Assembly (NCBI GenBank): GCA_030612365.1
Contig: JAUWOA010000013.1
Coordinates: 1-32,629, forward strand
Source of the DNA: Candidatus Thorarchaeota archaeon
GTDB lineage: Archaea; Asgardarchaeota; Thorarchaeia; Thorarchaeales; Thorarchaeaceae
Length of the DNA: 32,629 bases
Direction: 5' to 3'
The notes below the pieces were generated by a model. That model saw only the letters and a list, made by a program, of their open reading frames with translations. It did no database searches and was not told the origin of the DNA. This document shows, one piece after another, positions 5,102-25,003 of the stretch; the first letter of the stretch is position 1, and every line of letters starts with the position of its first letter. A program made the translations under genes and the position numbers.

Positions 5102-5241
5102 TTCCCTTCAATGTACAATCGAGTTAGATTCAAAAGATACCCCCCCAAAAGTCCCTCACCAGAAACCAGAGCAGTATCGGGCAGCACTGTTCATAGTTTC
5201 TGCTAACCTATGAGTTACAAGATCGTTGAGGAGACCGATTG

Positions 5242-7860
5242 ATGAGTGGACCATCCAGAAAAAAGGTGCAAGCTCCAAGCACCATTGAGGCAATCAGAAT
5301 GGCTTCGGCCTCGGTACTTGGAGTTTCCACAAGCCGTGGGAACCCCCTTGGCAGTGCAATAGGCTCTGGTAGCATGATGGAACAGAACTCCCAAGCTGTT
5401 GCCATGAATATATCGTCTCTAATCTTCGCAATTAGGAACGCTCTAAGAAAAACAGAAGGTCTGGAGCTACTCTCATTGGTATGGAACCTCGATCGTGCTC
5501 AAGGCTCTGAAGTTCTCCCAGAACAGCTCTCCATCGCTGGTGCATTATCAAACGAGGTTAGTTCTCATGTGTGTGTGCTGAGCTGGGAAGAGGGCATTGT
5601 AGATCCGTTCAAGATTGACAGTCATATGCAGAGATTATCAAAGAAGATTGCAGACGTGGAGGCTGCAGTTATCAATAACAACTTAGACTACGAAACCGAT
5701 GGGATGGCCATACTAGGCAAGTTCGTAGATCGCTTGAATAGCGTTGTCTTTGTTGAAATGATGGACCGTCAGTTCAAGAGTTCATGGGATTCGATTCAGC
5801 TGAAACCTGAAAACATCGACGAGGAAGTTGTCATCAAATTGCAGTACCGAGACGACTTCACAACGTTGCCTCCCGGGATGACAATACTAGAACGCACCGA
5901 CCTTAGGTTTGAGTTTCCTCAATTGAGCGAGATAGATACTATCCAGCACTTCAAACAAAGAATCCTGACGCCTCTAGCTATTGAAACGATATCATCAAGC
6001 ATTGCCAATACGGGCAGAGCGATTCTAAGCGAGTTGAACACATTCGCCTACGGCATAGAAGAGGTGGATATCGTGCGCGCATCGATTGCTGCCCTTGTTC
6101 GGTTTCTTGGAAGTGAGCAAGCGGAAATACGCGAACTCGATTCACTCAAGAAGAGGACAAACGAGTTTGCTAAGCTCCTAGTTGACACTGTTGATTCGTT
6201 TGAAGTGATTATTGAGCAGCACGTTGGTTCTGGACTCACACTATCGCTCTCTGAACACAAATCCAAGCTCAATTCCGAGATAGAATCTGACAAGACGCAG
6301 TTTGATGGATTCAAGGTTGAACTCGCGAAGGACCTTGTGAGTTATATGATGGAGTCCGTTGAACGTGAGTTCCCCGTTGACGACAAGCTGAGGGCATGGC
6401 AACTGAAGAGCACCATGAGATATTTCGTCGTTCATGCTAAGAAAGTGTCTCAGTACTTCGTGCTGGATTTACAGCAATATCTGATTGTGGGGACAACCAG
6501 AAGAGCGATATTCGAAACTATGCGGGCTTTCCGGGATGAGATGTCAAGTCAAGAGATGGGTCCCACTGAAACTATGCTATTCTACAAGTTCTTCGATGAC
6601 TTGCATAGTCAACTGAATGCGGTCATTGGTAAGAAGGCATTCGAAGGCTCTAAGCACAATCACCCTGCTGAGTTGATCAGCGTGATTGTCAATGATATCC
6701 AGAAGTCATTTGAAAAGATGGATGCATGGGCCTTGATAAGATTCAGCGACGTGGCTCAGATTGTTCGCTCTGAAATCGAGAGCAACCACTCGGCTGGAGT
6801 CAAGGATGGCAGTGCCACACTCTCAGAAACCGGCATAGCACTTCAGAATTTGCTTTCAGACTTCGAAACCCTTGTAGCAGATGTAGTGCCCGATGTAGCG
6901 GACCACCTCCTAAGCAAGGCATTGATTTCAAAGGCTATTGATGCAGTTCTAGATGAAGCCTTTGACCTGGCGGAAGCGCTTCTGTCGATAATAGAACAAC
7001 AAAGTGAGAAACCCGAGATGTGGAAAACTGAGGCTCGGCTTTGGGTTGAGGACTTTCGCATTCAAGGAATGGATGATAACCTCTCCAGCAAGCTGATGGA
7101 TTTCCTACAGTTTATTCATGATAAGGCCGGACGCAGGGGAACTGCACGGTCAATAGTTGAGCGAATTGCCAGCGAAGCTAATGTGCGAGAACAGGAGTAT
7201 CAGATTCTGGTTCAGAATTGGGAACAAGAACGCCAAGAAATAGAGACTGAGAATGCCAAGATACGGGTTCACAACGAGAAGAGGGATGCTCTGATTCAGC
7301 AGGCTCAATCCCAATTCAAAGAGGAAACGGCTGAGTACGAGTCAATCCAGGAGAAACAAAGACTTGCTCAAGCATCTCTTGATAGCACCGGCATCATTAT
7401 CCCCGACAAACCTAATGCTCCTCGGAGCATGGAATCGCGCATTGCTGAAGTTGATGATGAGTACTCACCCGGCCTTTCAGAACGTTCGATTCCACCCAAA
7501 CCCGAGCTTTCACAAGAAACGTTCCTCTACATCGAGCTGCGCGACACCATAACAAAGACGCTCTCAATGATGAATGAGAGTCAAGAGAAGATGGAATCCA
7601 TTTTCCTTGAAAGGTTGAAGCAACTCCAATCCGAGGGGTCGACAGCCACCGAAACAATCTTTCTCAGCATTGATGACGAGCTTCTTGAGTATCTGATGAG
7701 TTCGGTCATAAGAGGGTTGAGTAGACTACTTCCGCGGCCAACAAGAGCATACCTCAGAAATCCCGATTCTCCTGACATCATCTACGTTGTGACGTATGAA
7801 CAAAAAGGAAGTGAACTCACAATCAAAATCGGTGGAAGCAAAATGGGAGGTGCAGTCTAG
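5242..7860 (+). CDS. Large uncharacterised helical/coiled-coil protein (~872 aa), first gene of a coupled pair
   Basis: Long ORF with a GAGGAG Shine-Dalgarno at ~5228 and ATG 5242. Mostly helical with a central coiled coil (EYQILVQNWEQERQEIETENAKIRVHNEKRDALIQQAQSQFKEE). No family recognised. Confidence 0.85.
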   Translation: MSGPSRKKVQAPSTIEAIRMASASVLGVSTSRGNPLGSAIGSGSMMEQNSQAVAMNISSLIFAIRNALRKTEGLELLSLVWNLDRAQGSEVLPEQLSIAGALSNEVSSHVCVLSWEEGIVDPFKIDSHMQRLSKKIADVEAAVINNNLDYETDGMAILGKFVDRLNSVVFVEMMDRQFKSSWDSIQLKPENIDEEVVIKLQYRDDFTTLPPGMTILERTDLRFEFPQLSEIDTIQHFKQRILTPLAIETISSSIANTGRAILSELNTFAYGIEEVDIVRASIAALVRFLGSEQAEIRELDSLKKRTNEFAKLLVDTVDSFEVIIEQHVGSGLTLSLSEHKSKLNSEIESDKTQFDGFKVELAKDLVSYMMESVEREFPVDDKLRAWQLKSTMRYFVVHAKKVSQYFVLDLQQYLIVGTTRRAIFETMRAFRDEMSSQEMGPTETMLFYKFFDDLHSQLNAVIGKKAFEGSKHNHPAELISVIVNDIQKSFEKMDAWALIRFSDVAQIVRSEIESNHSAGVKDGSATLSETGIALQNLLSDFETLVADVVPDVADHLLSKALISKAIDAVLDEAFDLAEALLSIIEQQSEKPEMWKTEARLWVEDFRIQGMDDNLSSKLMDFLQFIHDKAGRRGTARSIVERIASEANVREQEYQILVQNWEQERQEIETENAKIRVHNEKRDALIQQAQSQFKEETAEYESIQEKQRLAQASLDSTGIIIPDKPNAPRSMESRIAEVDDEYSPGLSERSIPPKPELSQETFLYIELRDTITKTLSMMNESQEKMESIFLERLKQLQSEGSTATETIFLSIDDELLEYLMSSVIRGLSRLLPRPTRAYLRNPDSPDIIYVVTYEQKGSELTIKIGGSKMGGAV

Positions 7861-10310
7861 TGGCAAGTTCATGGATTCTCAAGACTAGGCAGATGTCCGA
7901 GGCTGGAAAGGAGATTCTTCTGAGAGAAGCGCTTGTCAACCACATGCGGAGCAATAGAGATCGTCAGCTCTTGATGGAAATTGCAGAAGGTCCTCGACCC
8001 ATGGAGGATATCCTGTCTTTCTTTGCATCATTCTGGTTGTACCATTACCAAGGTGTTAAGCTGATAGGGTTTGATGAGGCGCAAGACCTTACTATCGAGC
8101 TTAAGGACGAAGCAACGCGCGAGGAACGTCGTCAGCTTGAGCTAGAGATTCGGCAGCTGCTCGGTGTCAAATTTCAAGCGGAGATTGATGTATCCCGACT
8201 TGTAAGTGAGTTCTTCATCAATGCCGTAGAAACGATAGGCGGCAAGAGTGCAACTGATCAAAGCACGAAGGATGTGGCACTATCCTTGGTGAAGGAATAT
8301 CTTGGAAAGATACCGACTGACTATTCGCCAAATCATGACATTGATTTCATCAACGAAGTAACTGGCTGGGGCGCAGCATGGCGGCGAGAACTCTACGCAA
8401 AGGCGTCTGGCCTGAAAGAAACCGCTCTTTCTTTGAGGGATGAATTGCTCAGGCCCAGAGATGAAGAAACTGCTGAAATCACGGTTCTAACTCGTGGTCT
8501 GAGCCAAATTTCCGGAACTGCCAAGTATGCAGAGGGACGGCCCATGCAATCCATCTCTAACTCAACTTGGAATACCATTGCTGACGCCGTGCTGAAACGA
8601 TTAGGCCAGAGTCCTGTGGAAATACAGGCGATACGAGCTGCCCACGAGTTGAAGCTTGATTTAGTCGAAGCTGTCGAAATCGATCTCGAAACGCCCACAA
8701 CGCTTGAGGAGTATGAGGCAAAGATGGGTCAAGTAGTCGCGAAGCACTTGAGTGAGATGATTAAGGCGGAGCCTGACAGCATCTACAACATGCTATCACA
8801 GTTGCTTCAGATCAACTCTAGCGATATTCAAGCAGCGCTGCGAGTGAAGGGCATCAAAGACATTTCACAGCTAGCGGATGGTTTGATGAGTGTGGCTGAG
8901 CCGTCTACTGTCAAAATCGAAAGCCCCTCAATCAACAAGGAAGAACTTGAGGCAATGGAGCGGTCGTTGAGACGACTTGAGAAACTTGAAACCACCCTCC
9001 AAAAGCAGGTTAAAGGCATGATGAAAGCAAAAGGGTGGAGAGCATCAGAGATAGATAAGATATCATTGGACCTTCTTACTAAGGATCGCAGCACTCTGAT
9101 GGGCATTGAGGTTCAAGTGCTGGAAACCCTTGAATCAAAGATGCGTGTTCCCTCTCCAGAGGACCTCAAATTACTCATCAAGCAGCGCGAGCAAGTACAT
9201 GATGGCGCTCTAAGTTCACTGGGTATGGCCTCCGTTTCTGACATAAGTCATCAACTCAGGCAAGAAGAAGTCGCGAGAGCTATCAAGCTAGACTTGGTCT
9301 GGCATTTCACCATAGGTCTGTTGACGAATCTCACACGCATAGTGGAAACCTACATGCGATCGAAGCAAGACATGCTCCGCATGAAGGCGTTACTCAAGAG
9401 CATTTATGAAGATACAGAAACCGAGCTTCAATTCCTGCGCGAGGAGATATTGATTGACCTTACAGCTATCCGCATCTACGAGCTAAAATGTGTGCATCCT
9501 GAACTCGATGCGTCAACACTAAGCGCATGGATGCATGCACGTTTGGCAAGTAGGGCATTGGATGCTGCTTCTTCGAACCTTGAATCAACGCCAAGTCCAG
9601 TATTCGAGGGTGTAGTGGAAACCCCTCTCGTCCGGGATGGCCTTACGTTTGATAATTACGCCATCGCATATGATGTAATGCATCGCTTCTTGAAACAGGA
9701 ACGGTCTGAAAAGGCGGCAAAAGAGGAGCTGGCCATTGACGCAAAACGACAACAGCAAAAGCTCGCTGAGCGCAAAAAGGCATCGCTCGATGCGCTATCC
9801 TTTGTTTACACAAAGGCCCATACCGTCTTCAGGGCAATAGTCCGGGTAGGAACCGCAGGTCTGGAGTGGACAGCAAACGACGATACAAAGCTCGCTAACC
9901 TTCTTGCATTCTATGTGCGAACAAGCCGAGGACGTTCTGTCTGCACCAATTGCGGTGCAATACCTAAAGAGGGAGCTTGCTCTGAACATGGTTCCAACCA
10001 TATGATTCAGTGCAAGGATTTGGACAGTCTTGCTGTGTTCGTGATGCGATCCATTTCTGACATAAAGAGAGGTCTGATTGGCTCCAAAGCCGAAGCCATG
10101 ACGTGGGATGAGGCCAGGGTCATTGTCCAGAGAGAAATTGGGAATCTGAAGAGGAGCGGCAAATTGACGTCCAAGACGAATTTGAATGCAATGCTCCCAG
10201 GTGAGATAAATTACATTGTGGGGCCCGCACTAGCTAAGGTGATAGGGCAGTACTTCAACAACTCGCTGCAGTACGCAGCACGACGTGCTAATTTGGCGAA
10301 ATCCTATTAA
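7860..10310 (+). CDS. Large uncharacterised helical protein with C-terminal zinc-ribbon-like motif (816 aa), second gene of a coupled pair
   Basis: GTG start overlaps the previous TAG by one base (TAGTG). Long helical ORF. CTNCGAIPKEGACSEHG motif at ~9942-9992. Confidence 0.85.
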   Translation: MASSWILKTRQMSEAGKEILLREALVNHMRSNRDRQLLMEIAEGPRPMEDILSFFASFWLYHYQGVKLIGFDEAQDLTIELKDEATREERRQLELEIRQLLGVKFQAEIDVSRLVSEFFINAVETIGGKSATDQSTKDVALSLVKEYLGKIPTDYSPNHDIDFINEVTGWGAAWRRELYAKASGLKETALSLRDELLRPRDEETAEITVLTRGLSQISGTAKYAEGRPMQSISNSTWNTIADAVLKRLGQSPVEIQAIRAAHELKLDLVEAVEIDLETPTTLEEYEAKMGQVVAKHLSEMIKAEPDSIYNMLSQLLQINSSDIQAALRVKGIKDISQLADGLMSVAEPSTVKIESPSINKEELEAMERSLRRLEKLETTLQKQVKGMMKAKGWRASEIDKISLDLLTKDRSTLMGIEVQVLETLESKMRVPSPEDLKLLIKQREQVHDGALSSLGMASVSDISHQLRQEEVARAIKLDLVWHFTIGLLTNLTRIVETYMRSKQDMLRMKALLKSIYEDTETELQFLREEILIDLTAIRIYELKCVHPELDASTLSAWMHARLASRALDAASSNLESTPSPVFEGVVETPLVRDGLTFDNYAIAYDVMHRFLKQERSEKAAKEELAIDAKRQQQKLAERKKASLDALSFVYTKAHTVFRAIVRVGTAGLEWTANDDTKLANLLAFYVRTSRGRSVCTNCGAIPKEGACSEHGSNHMIQCKDLDSLAVFVMRSISDIKRGLIGSKAEAMTWDEARVIVQREIGNLKRSGKLTSKTNLNAMLPGEINYIVGPALAKVIGQYFNNSLQYAARRANLAKSY

Positions 10311-10332
10311 TCTGAAACTCTCAAGCGGAACC

Positions 10333-10340
10333 TTTTATAC
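10333..10340 (+). promoter_or_regulatory. Candidate archaeal TATA box for the DapA-Fae pair
   Basis: AAGCGGAACCTTTTATAC with purine-rich upstream bases, ~38 nt before ATG 10378; an AGGTG SD-like element lies at 10366-10370. Confidence 0.4.
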
Positions 10341-10377
10341 GACCGCACAGCCCGCGAAGCCTGTCAGGTGGTTCTTG

Positions 10378-11775
10378 ATGGCTAAATACGAACCCAAGGG
10401 TGTTATGCCCGCCTTGGTGACTCCTTTCACAAAGGATGGCGACATAATAGAAGAAGGATTCAAGGACATAATCGATTACACGATTGAGAAGGGTGCGACC
10501 GGTCTTGTGCCTGCTGGGACGACTGGAGAATTCGTCTATATGCGGACCGAGGAGCGGAAGAAACTCTTCAAAATGTGTGTAGAATTCGCGGATGGTCGCG
10601 TGCCCGTGGTGGCTGGGACTGGAGAAACTAGCACAGAAGCAACAGTCAAGATGACCAAGTATGCCGCAGACATAGGATGCGACGCGGCCCTAGTCATATC
10701 ACCATTCTATCTTCGCCCGACAGATAAGGGATACTACGAGCACTATGCAGCCGTAGCGGGAAAGGGCGGGCTGCCAATCATCATGTATAACATTCCACAA
10801 TGTACGCTCGGGGTTCTACAATCGAATATCGTAGAGGACTTGGCCGAGCTTGACAATATCGTTGGGATCAAGGATAGTAGTGGCCATATAGGCCATACTC
10901 TTGAACTGATCCAGAAGCTAGATGGCAAGATGCCGGTGCTTATTGGCCATGATGAGTGCTTCCTTTCTGCGGTTGCGGCAGGATCGAGTGCGGCAATCTT
11001 GGCATCCGCAAACGTGATGCCTCACATATGGCTCGACATCATGGACAAGGTGCAAAAGGGCGACATGAAGAATGCAGCGAAGCTTCAGCTCTCAGCACAG
11101 ACCTTTGCACGAATAGTTACTAGAAAGGGAGGTGCACCTCCCGTGAAAGCGGCACTTAGAATGATGGGGATAAACGCAGGCTATTCCAGAATGCCCCTGA
11201 ATTCAGGCGGCACTCTGACTCATGAGCTAAGGGCCGAGATTCAAATAGAACTGGAGAATCTTGGATTGATAGAAACCCTGACTCATCCCAAGGCTACAAA
11301 GGACATCGACATACAAAGAGCTCTTGGGAAGTTCGGAGTTGGACCGGACTACCTTCAGGACGCGGAAATCGGAAAGGGTTCTGAAGATACCGTGTCAGTG
11401 GCCATTATGACCGGGCCAAAAAATGGCGCTCTGGGTTCAGCATTCGTTAAGCTGCTGATGAATCCAAAAGTGGGTCACGAAGCTCTAACGGTGATCTTGG
11501 AACCTAATCTTCCTGTAAGACCGACAAGCATCATGGTGCCTATCAAGAAAATCAAGTCAATGCGTCAGGCTACCCTCTTCTACGGACCTGTACAGTCAGG
11601 AGCCGCAAGAGCTGTGGCAGCATTTCTCAAGAGCGGCAAGGTGCCGGATCAAGTCATCGTTGACAATGTGGTGATTATGGCCCTGGACATTGACCTGAAT
11701 TCCAGAAACCGAAGGCAAGTAACAGCGGCGACTGAGAGAGTCGTGTCAGCTGCTCTGGGACAGATATGGAAGTGA
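10378..11775 (+). CDS. DapA/NAL-family aldolase fused to a C-terminal Fae-like domain, copy 1 (Schiff-base Lys present, Fae catalytic His absent)
   Basis: DapA motifs VPAGTTGEF, MYNIPQ, IVGIKDSSG (Lys codon 10870-10872). C-terminal region HEALTVILEPNLPVRPTSIMVPIKKIKSMRQATLFYGPVQSGAARAVAAFLKSGKVP matches the remembered Fae core ([54 protein letters not shown]). Confidence 0.88.
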   Translation: MAKYEPKGVMPALVTPFTKDGDIIEEGFKDIIDYTIEKGATGLVPAGTTGEFVYMRTEERKKLFKMCVEFADGRVPVVAGTGETSTEATVKMTKYAADIGCDAALVISPFYLRPTDKGYYEHYAAVAGKGGLPIIMYNIPQCTLGVLQSNIVEDLAELDNIVGIKDSSGHIGHTLELIQKLDGKMPVLIGHDECFLSAVAAGSSAAILASANVMPHIWLDIMDKVQKGDMKNAAKLQLSAQTFARIVTRKGGAPPVKAALRMMGINAGYSRMPLNSGGTLTHELRAEIQIELENLGLIETLTHPKATKDIDIQRALGKFGVGPDYLQDAEIGKGSEDTVSVAIMTGPKNGALGSAFVKLLMNPKVGHEALTVILEPNLPVRPTSIMVPIKKIKSMRQATLFYGPVQSGAARAVAAFLKSGKVPDQVIVDNVVIMALDIDLNSRNRRQVTAATERVVSAALGQIWK

Positions 11776-11781
11776 TCAGAA

Positions 11782-13254
11782 ATGACAGATGACTTCACAT
11801 TCAAGGGCGTATACCCCGCTTTAGTAACACCATTCAGCAAAGATGGCGTCAACGAGGAGCAATACCGTGGATTGATTGATCATGTGATCAAGAGTGGTGC
11901 GACGGGAATTGTTCCTTGCGGAACAACAGGCGAGTTCACTAGCATGAGCTTCAATGAGAAGGTCGATGCATTCAGGATTGCTTGTGACGCAGCAAAAGAC
12001 AGGGTTCCTGTAATGGCTGGCACGGGAGCTGCATCAACAAGGGAGGCAATTCAGCTCACAAGGAGAGCCGCTGAATTCGGTGCCTCCGCCGCGCTAGTGG
12101 TCACCCCGTATTTCCTCAAGCCCAGCACGAAGGAAATTTATGAGCATTATGAACGGATTGCCAATGCAAGCGATATTCCGATATTCCTTTACAATATCCC
12201 CCAAGTGACGGGAGTCAACATCGATTGGTGGCTTGTAGATGGTCTCCGAGAGATAGATGGAATCATCGGAATGAATGACTCGAGTGCGAACCTGCTCAAT
12301 CTCACGACGATTCTCGTTCGCAGACCGGAGAGCTTCCAGGTGGTCATCGGACACGATGAGGTTGCTCTTCCAGCCTTTGCTACCGGTTGTGATGGTGCGA
12401 TACTCCTGAGTGCCAATATCTTTCCAGACCGCTACATACGAATGCAAGCTGCGCTCGCCAGTGGTGACCTCAAGGAAGGCTTAATCATTCAACGAAGCGT
12501 GCAGAAAACAATCCGGCTGATGGTCAACAAGGGCGGAGGGCTTGCTGTAAAGGCCGCCTTGAATATGATGGGGGTTCCAGTGGGAACCGCTCGAGCTCCA
12601 TTGAATGAAGGTGACGCTCTAAGGTACGAGGACATAGACGAGCTTAGGACATGTTTGGAAGACCTCCAGCTCATTAAGCGAGGACCAGTCACGTTCAAAA
12701 TGGGTGATAAGACTTTGATTGCTGAGTCCTATCCTAAAATAAATGGAGTTCCGGAAGTCATCGACGACTTGACATTGCTCCATGGAGAGGCGCTTGCCGG
12801 AGAAGGGTTGGAGGTTGCTCACGTCGATCTTGTTATGGGTCTTCGAGACGGACCACTTAAGGAAGCATTAGCAGCCGCTGGGATAATGACGGAGGGCTTC
12901 CACGCTTCCAATATCATCAAGGATCTCGAACCCACAACCGTCTTCGTTTCAACAGTTACAATCGTCGATGAAAAGCATAACGCGCTGGTATACGAAGTAG
13001 CTCAGAAGGCCGTGGCTGATGCTGTGACACGCACCATAACTGACATGATAATTCCTGAGGAGCTCGTTCCTGACTTGGTGATAGCCGCCAATGTATTCGT
13101 GCATCCTAGTGCCAATAATCCAAAACGTGTGCACATCAACAACTTCCGCGCTGTTCGACACGCTATTCGTCGGGCGATAGAACGACGGCAAGGCGTGGAT
13201 GAGATTATAGCAAGGAAAGATTCAGCTCGACACCCCTTCGCGTATAATCCCTAG
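11782..13254 (+). CDS. DapA/NAL-family domain fused to a C-terminal Fae-like domain, copy 2 (Schiff-base Lys replaced by Asn, Fae His present)
   Basis: VPCGTTGEF, LYNIPQ, IIGMNDSSA (Asn codon 12274-12276). C-terminal GEALAGEGLEVAHVDLVMG matches Fae GEALVGDGNEVAHIDLIIG, and DLVIAANVFVHPSA...KDSARHPFAYNP matches the Fae C-terminus. Confidence 0.88.
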   Translation: MTDDFTFKGVYPALVTPFSKDGVNEEQYRGLIDHVIKSGATGIVPCGTTGEFTSMSFNEKVDAFRIACDAAKDRVPVMAGTGAASTREAIQLTRRAAEFGASAALVVTPYFLKPSTKEIYEHYERIANASDIPIFLYNIPQVTGVNIDWWLVDGLREIDGIIGMNDSSANLLNLTTILVRRPESFQVVIGHDEVALPAFATGCDGAILLSANIFPDRYIRMQAALASGDLKEGLIIQRSVQKTIRLMVNKGGGLAVKAALNMMGVPVGTARAPLNEGDALRYEDIDELRTCLEDLQLIKRGPVTFKMGDKTLIAESYPKINGVPEVIDDLTLLHGEALAGEGLEVAHVDLVMGLRDGPLKEALAAAGIMTEGFHASNIIKDLEPTTVFVSTVTIVDEKHNALVYEVAQKAVADAVTRTITDMIIPEELVPDLVIAANVFVHPSANNPKRVHINNFRAVRHAIRRAIERRQGVDEIIARKDSARHPFAYNP

Positions 13255-20462: not shown

Positions 20463-21320
20463 CTATGTAGCTTTGTCAGCCTTTCCTTCGAGAATGGCCT
20501 TTCTGATGATTTGGATGAGCCTTTCACGGTATGAAATATCGATGGCTACTAGCTCGTAAGTGGGAATGCTTAGAATCTGGCCAACTCGCTCAGGAGTCAG
20601 TGCTGTTGGAAGGTCTTGTTTATTGGCAATGCCAATCACCTTGGCGTTCGGAACTTCCTCACTGACTAGAGTTACCAACTTTTTGCTTCTCAGCACATTC
20701 TCCAGCGTGCTATCAGTAACAATCACAACAACTTGTGCGTTGGCAATCATCTTGGCCCAAAGAATACTGAACCTTGATTGACCTGCGAGATCCCAAAGGA
20801 CGATATTGGCATTCTCTACTTCGGTGGGCAATTTCTTGATTGAAACGCCAATGGTGGGGTCATGGACAAGGGGGAGAGTTTCTCCTCTCAACAGGTGCAG
20901 AGTAGTTGTCTTCCCCACACCTGCGAAGCCGAGTATGGCAACTTTCACCAAAGTGACTGCAATTTCATCCACGATGGCATCGAGTCCATCAAGAGGCTGG
21001 TTTGCTATGGCAAGAGGGGCGAAGTCCTTCATGAACTTCACAATCAGGTCGCTCATCTTCCCCTTAATTTGTGCGCTGTCATCCGCCTTGTCGGCAATGA
21101 ACACGAATGTGAATACATCTTCTAAACCGTAGAATATTCTCCAGCTTGATATGCCCATTGACTCTACATTCCCGTCGAGCTCTACAGTCCTGATGAACTG
21201 TGTAAGATTCACTAGAAACTCGATCAGACTATCTTTGTGTTCGCTCTTGGCATACTCTTTTGAGAATATCATCTCACTCTGTTGTCCAAGAATGTAAACG
21301 CCTCTAATCACAGATTTCAC
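20463..21320 (-). CDS. Ras/Arf-like small GTPase with N-terminal longin/roadblock-like region
   Basis: G1 GFAGVGKTT, G2-like DPTIGVS, G3 WDLAGQ, G4 NKQD. GTG 21320 preceded by GAGGAG is preferred over ATG 21344. Confidence 0.88.
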   Translation of the reverse strand: MKSVIRGVYILGQQSEMIFSKEYAKSEHKDSLIEFLVNLTQFIRTVELDGNVESMGISSWRIFYGLEDVFTFVFIADKADDSAQIKGKMSDLIVKFMKDFAPLAIANQPLDGLDAIVDEIAVTLVKVAILGFAGVGKTTTLHLLRGETLPLVHDPTIGVSIKKLPTEVENANIVLWDLAGQSRFSILWAKMIANAQVVVIVTDSTLENVLRSKKLVTLVSEEVPNAKVIGIANKQDLPTALTPERVGQILSIPTYELVAIDISYRERLIQIIRKAILEGKADKAT

Positions 21321-22428
21321 CCCACTCCTCGATAAGGAGTTCAAGATGCCTAATTGCTGTTTCAGGTGCTAGCTCCTTGTCTGTCAGTTTCTTCGAAATC
21401 GTCGGGAGTATGAACTCAGGCATAAATGATTCAATGACAGGATCTGAAACAAGTACCCAAATACCATATTCATCAAGCTGGGCAGCCACTCTGTCTGATT
21501 CGAATGACCACAGAATGGATTGTACAATTTCAAGAGGAAGCGCCGTTTTCTGTGAAATATTTCCAATCTCCTGAGGACCTTCGCGCAGACATTCCAGGAC
21601 CATATAATGTAAACTCTTGGAGAGCAGTCTTGACATCTTCTCCCTGTCCTCAAGAAGGGGCGAGTTTGGATCGTCCACCGGCAATGTGGGATTGTAACCT
21701 TTCCCCGTCGGGGGAGAAAAGAAACTTGAAACAATCTGCTTGTACTTCTTGCCCATTTCAGGGTTAGCTTCTATAGCTTTCATAATTGATTTCACGGGTG
21801 GGGCACGATAACCGTGAATATCCTTAATCAGGAAAACAGTTTCTCCTGTCTTGCCTAGCATTTCGACCTTGACAACTCCGGATTTCATGAGTGGTTCCAC
21901 GATTTCACGAAGCTCGATTGTGTCTGTCTGCAATTGGCTTTGAAGCCAGATAGAAATCTTGGCCGCTCTTTCCACACCCTCTATCTCGAGTCTTTCTAGA
22001 AGCAACGCAGATGAAGGAGTAAAGAAGATGTCAGCCATCCTTTGCTCTTCATTCGGTTCATTGAGAACACTCTCATTACTGAGAATCTCGCGCAAGTTGA
22101 CTGTATCCGGCACTTCGCTCATCAGTTCCAAGATGAGTCGTGCCATGCCTGCCATGTTATTATCCTCGGTTTCGTAGTCTTCATCAGCTTCGAGAATAAA
22201 GCATACTACCCATCCGGGGTGTTTCCTTTCAGCGAATGAAACCACCCTCATTCCATCTATATCAGAGAATTTGAGATTCGCTACCTTCTCTTTCTCATGC
22301 TCATAGTACACAAGGTTTAGCGCTTTCTCATTGAGGGAAAGCGTGGAGGGATAGCGCTTCTCAACAATGAATCCTTGGTAGTCGTCCAAATGAACTACGA
22401 AAATCGCTTCTGGCATGTAACGCCCCAT
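21304..22428 (-). CDS. Uncharacterised protein with longin-like N-terminus and winged-helix-like segments, operonic with GTPase
   Basis: MPEAIFVVHLDDYQGFIVEKRYPSTL... then helical regions. 17-nt overlap with the downstream GTPase gene. Start ATG 22428 or 22416 more plausible than 22497. Confidence 0.75.
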   Translation of the reverse strand: MGRYMPEAIFVVHLDDYQGFIVEKRYPSTLSLNEKALNLVYYEHEKEKVANLKFSDIDGMRVVSFAERKHPGWVVCFILEADEDYETEDNNMAGMARLILELMSEVPDTVNLREILSNESVLNEPNEEQRMADIFFTPSSALLLERLEIEGVERAAKISIWLQSQLQTDTIELREIVEPLMKSGVVKVEMLGKTGETVFLIKDIHGYRAPPVKSIMKAIEANPEMGKKYKQIVSSFFSPPTGKGYNPTLPVDDPNSPLLEDREKMSRLLSKSLHYMVLECLREGPQEIGNISQKTALPLEIVQSILWSFESDRVAAQLDEYGIWVLVSDPVIESFMPEFILPTISKKLTDKELAPETAIRHLELLIEEWGEICD

Positions 22429-22657
22429 CCTCGGGATGTGTCTTGCTACATAAATGTTTGACCCTGATGAGCTCCCGCGACTGCAAATCGGGAACAATGA
22501 CTGGGTTTCCTCTTATCGTTTCACAAGGTTTCGAATTACACTGTTGATTAATCACTTTTGCAGGATTGGTCCTAGACAGGCGCCATCTGCGAGCATCGAG
22601 TTCCTCCCTAGAAAGGGTGAAAAGCGTAAATTTGCTGTTCGGTTCAAGGACAATACG

Positions 22658-25003
22658 ATGGACTCGCCGACTCGCCAACTCATAATCCCTGTCATGGCAA
22701 CCAGAACCACTCGGTTGGCTGATGGGCAGCCGGTTAAGCAAGCAGTGCCGGAAGATTATGCGTTGGCAGCAATCTTGATCAACGCTCTCACTACAAGGAA
22801 TGATAATGAAATCGAGTTCGTTCTCAAGACATATCTTCCGATTAGAGTGGTTCCCTCGACGCTGTCATCAGGATGCTTTCTTATCGAGTATCAGGGCATG
22901 AGTTCTGCTAGTCTGGTTAGCCATCAAGAAATCGATTTTGGAGATTTGCTGGAACGCGTAAGGGGTAGCCATTCTAGTTCCGAACTTCTTGATTGCATAA
23001 GCGACTGTCTGTCAGTAGTCGACACCGTTTCAAGCGCCACATCACAAGAGCACCTTGGTGTGCTATCTGGGCCATTAGCAGCATGTGTTTCACAGATGTT
23101 GGAATGGCCGACAAAAGAGAAACTTGAGGAGTACGCCCTCGCTCTTCCGAAGCTGTTGAAGGATTCAGATGTTGAAAAATGTGCTGAGGCACTTCAGAAA
23201 ACATTTCAAGTTCTTCGGAATGCCGGATCTGCTCTCTCTCGCGCCGATGAAGAAATCGCATCTCAGATGCGGAACATCCTTTCTGAAAAGGAATCACAAA
23301 CATCGATGAAAATCACCAGACTCAATCAACGTATAGATGTTCTTCGGAAAGAGGTCGCGAATTTGGAGTCGCGAGTTGAACAAATAACAGCGAGAGATTC
23401 TTCAGAAGGCAAACGGGCCTCAAAAAAGAAAGAAGTTGAAACGACGCTGAAGAGCAGGAAGAAAGCTCTGAAGAGAGATATCGCCAGACGTGAAGAGATC
23501 TTGACCCGGAACCAGAACGACTTCAGGGATCTGCTTATACAGCAAAAGGAATTGCATTCGCGAACTGAGAGCGCGCAAAGTAGAATTGAGAATCAGCGTC
23601 GGTTGTTGCACGACGCCTTTCTTGTTGCTTGCAGTGGTGTTGGCCCTGATAAAGACGGCGTCACCCTGATGATCCCTTTCATAATAATTGGGTTCTCCAA
23701 GAAAGGCCGCCTACGCGTCGTGGTACACCCTCCATCGCACTTGCGCTCCATTGACCAACAAGTTGGTCGGCGTCGTGACTTTGTTTACCCTCTTATCGCC
23801 GATTCCGGACTCAGCTCGATTACGGACGAACTCACACGCCGCGCCAACAGTGATGTTGGATTCAGGAATTTCTTGCGGACCTCCTCGAAAAAGAACAACC
23901 TTCTCGCCATTGGAGTCACTCGTTCCTTAATCAGGGAGGGTGGCAAATCTCTTCAATCCGATGGCTTAGTGAAGGCGAATCTGCTTGACGAAATCAGCGA
24001 CATCATTTCTGGATTTCCAGAAAGTAAAAAGAAACCAATAAAACTCAGCAAGGTGTCTCCTGTTCTTTCAGGTTCTGATGCAACCTGTTTTGTTAGATTT
24101 CACGTGCACGATGTTTCAGGCAAACCCATTGAGGGAGCTCTTCTAGAACTGGGCGCGTTTCTTCTTCGGTCAGATGCTGGCGGAGTGATTAAGGCATCAC
24201 TGCCTAAAAGCCGCTATGAGGGAGTAATTCGAGCAAACGACTATCGCGACCGACCAATCGAGTTCACTCTAAGCTCAACGAGTAATCTGGTTATACCGGT
24301 GACCCTAGATCCGTTTTCAGACGAGGAACGCCTCACCATTAGGTTCGATAAACTGATGGAACGGGCGCAACACATCGACGAAATAAGAGATAGGCTGAGA
24401 GATGCATTCCAAAAACAAGGAAGCACGCTGCTCAGCATACCTGCTTATAGAAGTGCATTTGAGGAGCTTCTAACCGAGCTCGGCTATGAACCTGAGTCAT
24501 GGATTGCTGAAGCGACGAAGAAGAAAGGAATGGTCAAACGTTTGCTTAAGCGGGACGATAGGGTTGAGGGTTTGAGACGCGACATCCTTCGATTAGCACA
24601 GGAATCCAAGGAGTCCGGGGGTATAATGATGTTCTCCGAATTCTTGGTTAGATTGGATTCCCTTGGATGGGCTACCAAGTCGAAAGAGATAGAAAACATC
24701 GTTACCTCCATGACCAAAGAAGGGCTAATCCAGGGCATGACAAGACTTGAGAATGGCACACGCCTAGTGAAATTCATACCTGTCGAACTAACTAGGGACC
24801 CCACACAAGTGCTAGGTCTCGCCGCAAAGACAGACGGTCGCTTAACAATCGAAGATGTTGTTGTTGGTCTTGGATGGACTGAGGATCGTGTAGCCAACGC
24901 ACTTGATCTTCTTGCTGAGAATGGAGTGGCAAAGGAGCAGAAGAGCTACTCTAAGAGTACGATATACTGGTTCCCAGGTTTTCGGGGGCGTCGGAAGAAA
25001 TAA
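22658..25003 (+). CDS. Large coiled-coil protein with C-terminal EAP30/SNF8 (ESCRT-II Vps22-like) domain
   Basis: C-terminus GGIMMFSEFLVRLDS...TRLVKFIPVELTRDPTQVLGLAAKTDGRLTIEDVVVGLGWTEDRVANALDLLAENGVAKEQ...YWFPGF aligns by eye with human SNF8 (GGLITLEELHQQV...TYLIQSVPAELNMDHTVVLQLAEKNGYVTVSEIKASLKWETERARQVLEHLLKEGLAWLD...YWLPAL). ATG 22658 has an upstream AAGGA; ORF start 22454 is possible. Confidence 0.82.
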   Translation: MDSPTRQLIIPVMATRTTRLADGQPVKQAVPEDYALAAILINALTTRNDNEIEFVLKTYLPIRVVPSTLSSGCFLIEYQGMSSASLVSHQEIDFGDLLERVRGSHSSSELLDCISDCLSVVDTVSSATSQEHLGVLSGPLAACVSQMLEWPTKEKLEEYALALPKLLKDSDVEKCAEALQKTFQVLRNAGSALSRADEEIASQMRNILSEKESQTSMKITRLNQRIDVLRKEVANLESRVEQITARDSSEGKRASKKKEVETTLKSRKKALKRDIARREEILTRNQNDFRDLLIQQKELHSRTESAQSRIENQRRLLHDAFLVACSGVGPDKDGVTLMIPFIIIGFSKKGRLRVVVHPPSHLRSIDQQVGRRRDFVYPLIADSGLSSITDELTRRANSDVGFRNFLRTSSKKNNLLAIGVTRSLIREGGKSLQSDGLVKANLLDEISDIISGFPESKKKPIKLSKVSPVLSGSDATCFVRFHVHDVSGKPIEGALLELGAFLLRSDAGGVIKASLPKSRYEGVIRANDYRDRPIEFTLSSTSNLVIPVTLDPFSDEERLTIRFDKLMERAQHIDEIRDRLRDAFQKQGSTLLSIPAYRSAFEELLTELGYEPESWIAEATKKKGMVKRLLKRDDRVEGLRRDILRLAQESKESGGIMMFSEFLVRLDSLGWATKSKEIENIVTSMTKEGLIQGMTRLENGTRLVKFIPVELTRDPTQVLGLAAKTDGRLTIEDVVVGLGWTEDRVANALDLLAENGVAKEQKSYSKSTIYWFPGFRGRRKK

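Follow-up and report, generated by a model that had tools for sequence, protein, structure and literature searches.

What do two very large, overlapping genes of an Asgard archaeon encode, and do their products act together? The window, the whole stretch of 32,629 nucleotides analysed here, is a whole contig of a Candidatus Thorarchaeota genome (2.3 Mb, 88% complete). The earlier note had described two large ORFs overlapping in TAGTG, which the sequence confirms (Table 1); we call them P1 and P2. Both are real genes. They are under purifying selection, with dN/dS values against congeners of 0.13-0.23 for P1 and 0.10-0.14 for P2, and full-length homologues of both are found in dozens of genomes. 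An in-frame TTG at 5239 is an alternative start just upstream of the P1 ATG.

Table 1. Features of the P1-P2 gene pair, with positions in the window and residue numbers of the respective protein.
Feature	Position	Strand	Basis
Shine-Dalgarno-like GAGGAG, 5' of P1 ATG 5242	5228-5233	+	read from sequence
P1, 872 aa	5242-7860	+	ORF from ATG 5242, stop TAG 7858-7860; dN/dS
P1 14-145, conserved N-terminal alpha/beta domain, a-b-b-a-b-b-b-a	5281-5676	+	AlphaFold2; roadblock/longin-like topology
P1 635-798 (approx.), long helical hairpin/coiled coil	7144-7635	+	AlphaFold2; f1, f4 and f11 only
P1 812-867, C-terminal helix and three-strand meander	7675-7842	+	AlphaFold2; kept across families
Shine-Dalgarno-like GGAGG for P2, within P1 coding end	7846-7850	+	sequence
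TAGTG stop/start overlap of P1 and P2, 1 base	7858-7862	+	sequence
P2, 816 aa, all-helical	7860-10310	+	ORF from GTG 7860, stop TAA 10308-10310
P2 491-611, most conserved core	9330-9692	+	36 sequences, eight families
P2 zinc-knuckle-like C695-x2-C698-x8-C707-x2-H710	9942-9989	+	sequence, weak PF08271

The exact 1-bp overlap is common to the genus and two further genomes of the family, and in other Thorarchaeia the gap between the genes is 0-6 nt. A Shine-Dalgarno-like site of P2 lies within the last P1 codons in 27 of 29 thorarchaeal loci, as GGAGG, GAGGT or a shorter form, 6-15 nt 5' of the P2 start. The conserved feature of the junction in Thorarchaeia is this tight spacing with a Shine-Dalgarno site inside the end of P1, not the exact overlap. 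Coupled translation of the two genes is plausible, and P2 can probably also initiate independently of P1. The fixed ratio of the products that had been read from the overlap is not supported, because P2 carries a strong Shine-Dalgarno site of its own.

Neither protein has a credible match in Pfam, NCBIfam, PHROGs or PADLOC. The view that both are uncharacterised and lack an enzyme motif was borne out, as no enzyme signature or catalytic motif was detected with Pfam or NCBIfam, and a profile search placing them in a known family, named beforehand as the outcome that would speak against this view, assigned neither. A match to YfbU (Pfam: PF03887) was rejected with 19.3 bits against a cut-off of 25 bits, over 42 residues in two of 36 members, and so were weak shikimate kinase and CPBP matches, which were below cut-offs or covered short stretches. 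No PADLOC model for anti-phage defence and no PHROGs viral family matches P1 or P2, and P1 has no match among the viral folds of BFVD at E<=0.001 (Foldseek). Among PDB sequences, the P1 matches are coiled-coil noise, since residues 635-798 score against many coiled coils because of their composition, and the P2 matches are due to chance; beyond isolated noise of this kind no ABC ATPase, SMC or kleisin domain was detected in either protein. Foldseek searches against PDB folds returned nothing at E<=0.001 for P1 or P2, and proton-pyrophosphatase matches of P2 were rejected with a TM-score below 0.1. A literature search with partial coverage found no description of the pair.

Single-sequence searches of the 59 related genomes found P2 in 38 of them and P1 in 34. 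For a phylum-wide search we built profiles from divergent members, which detected P2 in 121, P1 in 118 and both in 116 of the 228 genomes of the phylum; the full spread of the pair is visible solely with such profiles. The pair-bearing genomes belong to eight families, f1 (Thorarchaeia), f2, f4 (Jordarchaeia), f11, f25, f26, f27 and f28. Five genomes, G204 among them, have P2 only by profile; in G205, G207 and G208 a diverged P1 adjoins P2, and the G144 genome is 69% complete. P1 alone was found in two genomes, with the match at a contig end in G124 and barely significant in G057 (E 8e-4). Both genes are absent from two f1 genomes of genus g11, which are 96-99% complete. P2 had no match outside the phylum in a search of 393 genomes, about 165 of them outside it by subtraction. 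The pair is restricted to Asgard archaea as far as searched, with roughly half of the Asgard genomes sampled carrying it and others, such as those of families f3, f5-f10 and f12-f18, lacking it, and both proteins are mostly single-copy. Besides these homologues, G025 encodes a 773-aa protein (L163:8016-10337) that has an apparent signal peptide; its match to the P2 profile is confined to P2 ~322-459 (E 1e-8 to 1e-15), and the gene beside it does not resemble P1.

P1 lies directly upstream of P2 at every examined locus of f1, f2, f4, f11, f26, f27 and f28. Judged partly on these loci and otherwise on the coordinates of the profile matches, only two of the 116 genomes with both genes have them apart, and in one more, G019, contig ends split them. 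In f25, P1 and P2 are unlinked, each lying on a separate contig and not near its ends. The synteny in other genomes that had been set beforehand as a check on the pair was found across the families except f25. The trees of P1 and P2 are largely congruent, with 21 of 33 splits in common. In G182 (f2, L162:5894-17748) the pair occurs in two tandem copies, one of them with a P2 about 65 aa shorter; in both trees copy a is placed with G177 and copy b branches apart, and this joint segregation indicates that the two genes were duplicated together. Additional matches to P1 and P2 of this type were seen in G189. The evolutionary rates of P1 and P2 correlate with r 0.855 (partial 0.607), the highest value among seven local genes and only modestly above other local pairs such as P1-MBL (partial 0.53).

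The shared occurrence and adjacency of P1 and P2, their largely congruent trees and their joint duplication argue that they are obligate partners, a reading that is well, though indirectly, supported by the comparative data. On the same grounds the suggestion that they probably make one complex gains support, and we consider it likely that the two proteins associate physically. They are not paralogues of each other (hhalign, 4.4%). Separately, one f28-binned genome carries a pair that groups tightly with f11 (L160, G206:C140); the contig is 10.9 kb long, its bin is 9% contaminated and it is probably mis-binned.

The neighbourhood of AFOR, MBL, DapA-Fae, M20 and LarB genes is conserved around the pair in Thorarchaeia only. 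A constant place beside DapA-Fae, which the earlier note had wanted checked, holds in that group and was rejected as a general rule, and the neighbouring metabolic genes differ among families; in f2, for example, a PLP-dependent enzyme is among the neighbours examined. No GTPase gene adjoins the pair. In two Jordarchaeia genomes a 404-aa gene lies directly 3' of P2 (L075:11812-13026 and L076:7926-9140), with a four-base overlap with the P2 stop in one genome and a start one base past it in the other. The scanned copy encodes a HEAT-repeat protein (Cnd1/Adaptin_N-like matches), and the second was assigned to it by equal length and position. Among the neighbours scanned in other families no such gene was found.

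Two further observations concern the window itself. At 10285-13254 there are two tandem genes, each a DapA-type aldolase domain fused to a formaldehyde-activating-enzyme (Fae) domain, only the second of which scores above the NCBIfam cut-off for Fae; this tandem adjoins P1-P2 at the Thorarchaeia loci examined. At 20463-25003 three proteins are encoded together: an Arf-like GTPase with an N-terminal extension of roughly 130 aa, a protein of 397 aa that has no Pfam match, and one of 849 aa whose C-terminus is an EAP30/Vps36 (ESCRT-II) domain.

AlphaFold2 models were built with 34-38 homologues and are confident for both P1 (pLDDT 86.4, pTM 0.78) and P2 (pLDDT 85.9, pTM 0.69). The N-terminal alpha/beta domain of P1 is 128-142 aa long in all eight families and single-copy, with no credible second copy elsewhere in the genomes. 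It is followed in the model by a beta-hairpin at ~193-223 and a helical body. The segment that forms the long hairpin measures 148-206 aa in f1, f4 and f11 versus 67-79 aa in f2 and f25-f28, and a coiled coil present in three of eight families was rejected as the defining feature of P1. What is conserved in P1 is its N-terminal alpha/beta domain and helical parts.

P2 is modelled as all helix except one tiny zinc hairpin. Its conservation is concentrated in charged residues of the core, where R493, E496, Y498, E528, R538, E541, R561, S579, Y600, D605 and R609 are invariant or nearly so in 36 sequences; E96, D162 and E206 are further near-invariant charged residues across the eight families. 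The C-terminal Cys/His motif is real, and its C-C-C-H ligands are present in f1, f4, f11 and f25. One f27 member also has them, two others have lost them, as has f2, and in f26 they are altered; the shorter P2 of f28 ends before the position of the motif. Zn_Ribbon_TF (Pfam: PF08271) matches four of 36 P2 homologues weakly, with E down to 0.00095. Lost repeatedly, the motif was rejected as a defining feature. The description of both proteins as mainly helical and coiled-coil thus holds for the helices, throughout P2 and in part for P1, and not for the coiled coil, as only P1 has a long coiled-coil-like hairpin. Nor are coiled coil and zinc motif the essence of these proteins: because both vary between families, the conserved essence lies in the N-terminal and helical parts of P1 and the core of P2.

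The N-terminal domain of P1 offers the most specific structural clue. Roadblock, longin and LuxR/PAS-like folds belong to the same five-stranded class. The best-probability Foldseek match of P1 is a weak one to the 105-aa chain 8glv_AK (prob 0.82, E 0.17), whose length and entry fit the dynein roadblock LC7a; we place it on the N-terminal domain because of the length of the match, as Foldseek gives no region. Weaker matches are to longin and LuxR/PAS-like folds, including 9rs9 Fuzzy-Inturned with prob 0.57. In the confident model the helix/strand order of residues 14-145 agrees with that of roadblock proteins. P1 has no sequence match to Robl_LC7 (Pfam: PF03259) at E<=1, Robl and longin are absent from the Pfam families listed for 36 P1 homologues, and profile-profile comparison with roadblock domains of the same genome, which has 11 Robl_LC7 matches over the cut-off, gave hhalign probabilities of 0.2-0.3%, so that membership was rejected. 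The domain is at most roadblock/longin-like and, on present evidence, not a member of the family; judging from the predicted model, the chances that it is roadblock/longin-like in fold are about even. Roadblock and longin proteins bind small GTPases from bacteria to eukaryotes, form dimers and are abundant in Asgards (PMC10933270), and since such dimers bind GTPases and are abundant there we propose by analogy that the P1 N-terminus might dock a small GTPase, which is a doubtful proposition when taken by itself. The Robl_LC7 matches of the genome and the Arf-like GTPase encoded in the window are in keeping with it.

Our best explanation, put forward tentatively, is an Asgard-specific two-subunit scaffold whose roadblock/longin-like P1 N-terminus would dock small GTPases. 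P1 and P2 would assemble into a large soluble scaffold, probably during translation from the adjoining genes, in which P2, helical and elongated, would be the body carrying the complex. The alpha/beta domain of P1 would be the platform docking a partner, most likely a Ras/Arf-type small GTPase of the host. In most families the zinc knuckle of P2 may serve for a further contact, and the coiled-coil arm of P1 would be an extra of Thorarchaeia, Jordarchaeia and one other family. Counted against this explanation are the missing roadblock sequence similarity, the lack of any Foldseek match at E<=0.001, the lack of an adjoining GTPase gene, a rate correlation little above that of other local pairs and the unlinked genes of f25. 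The earlier proposal of a large structural or scaffold complex stands in so far as there is probably one complex; P1, with its alpha/beta domain, is more than a helical scaffold.

A scaffold of purely structural or cytoskeletal type, in which P1 and P2 would use their helices and coiled coils to polymerise or to brace a large assembly and no GTPase would be involved, is somewhat unlikely. The mostly helical models, the long P1 hairpin in f1, f4 and f11, the coiled-coil nature of the P1 profile matches in PDB and the absent enzyme signature are all in keeping with it. However, five of the eight families lack the coiled coil, which therefore is not the function they share; in P1 it is the alpha/beta domain and the helical body that are conserved, and P2 is conserved mainly in its charged core. 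The GTPase-docking scaffold could also be extended to an Asgard-specific hub of membrane traffic or signalling, a roadblock/longin GTPase platform within a two-subunit helical machine that has no bacterial or eukaryotic homologue; this wider reading is unlikely.

It is improbable that the pair forms a chromosome- or nucleic-acid-linked complex, with the P2 zinc knuckle contacting DNA or RNA and a HEAT-repeat subunit in Jordarchaeia. The adjoining HEAT-repeat gene, the weak likeness of the zinc motif to the TFIIB zinc ribbon and the basic P1 and P2 of one f2 member (pI 8.7-9.0) would fit, but the HEAT gene was not found among the scanned neighbours in other families, thorarchaeal P1 is acidic (pI 4.9), the zinc motif is repeatedly lost and neither an ABC/SMC nor a kleisin signature was detected. 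Least of all do we expect an enzyme of novel fold in which the Arg/Glu/Asp cluster of P2 491-611 would be the active site and P1 the regulatory subunit: although these charged residues and E96, D162 and E206 are near-invariant in eight families, they can be buried salt bridges of a helical core, no catalytic motif or family match was found and the metabolic neighbours vary by family.

Among known microbes, Asgard archaea are the nearest relatives of complex cells, and their cell biology has so far largely been tracked through proteins recognisable from eukaryotes. P1-P2 are the opposite case, two large co-inherited proteins found in eight families and, in the present search, nowhere else. Should the GTPase-linked machine prove true, it would represent a regulatory cell biology of the Asgards' own. 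Whatever its function, the defined two-gene unit can easily be expressed and structurally solved.

P1 and P2 are new at the level of protein families, and their function may yet turn out to be a variation on a known type. P2 shares the CxxC...CxxH spacing of TFIIB-type zinc ribbons (Pfam: PF08271), but its one short knuckle is set inside a helical protein, repeatedly lost and accompanied by no other part of TFIIB. In contrast to SMC/kleisin/condensin complexes, the conserved unit has no ABC ATPase, kleisin or HEAT subunit, and a HEAT gene was seen beside the pair only in Jordarchaeia. P1 635-798 scores like coiled-coil scaffold proteins, in a segment that five of the eight families lack. The longin-based Rab GEFs Fuzzy-Inturned and Mon1-Ccz1 likewise consist of two large partners with a longin-like domain; there both partners carry a longin domain, whereas P1 has one candidate domain and P2 is all-helical, which sets the pair apart from that class, as do the lack of a sequence match and the absence of P1-P2 outside Asgards in our search. 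Finally, the roadblock/LC7 and longin proteins, such as dynein LC7a, MglB, LAMTOR2/3 and the TRAPP core, have the helix/strand order that is modelled for P1 14-145, but the P1 domain shows no sequence similarity to them and is instead single-copy, fused to a helical protein of about 700 aa and tied to P2.
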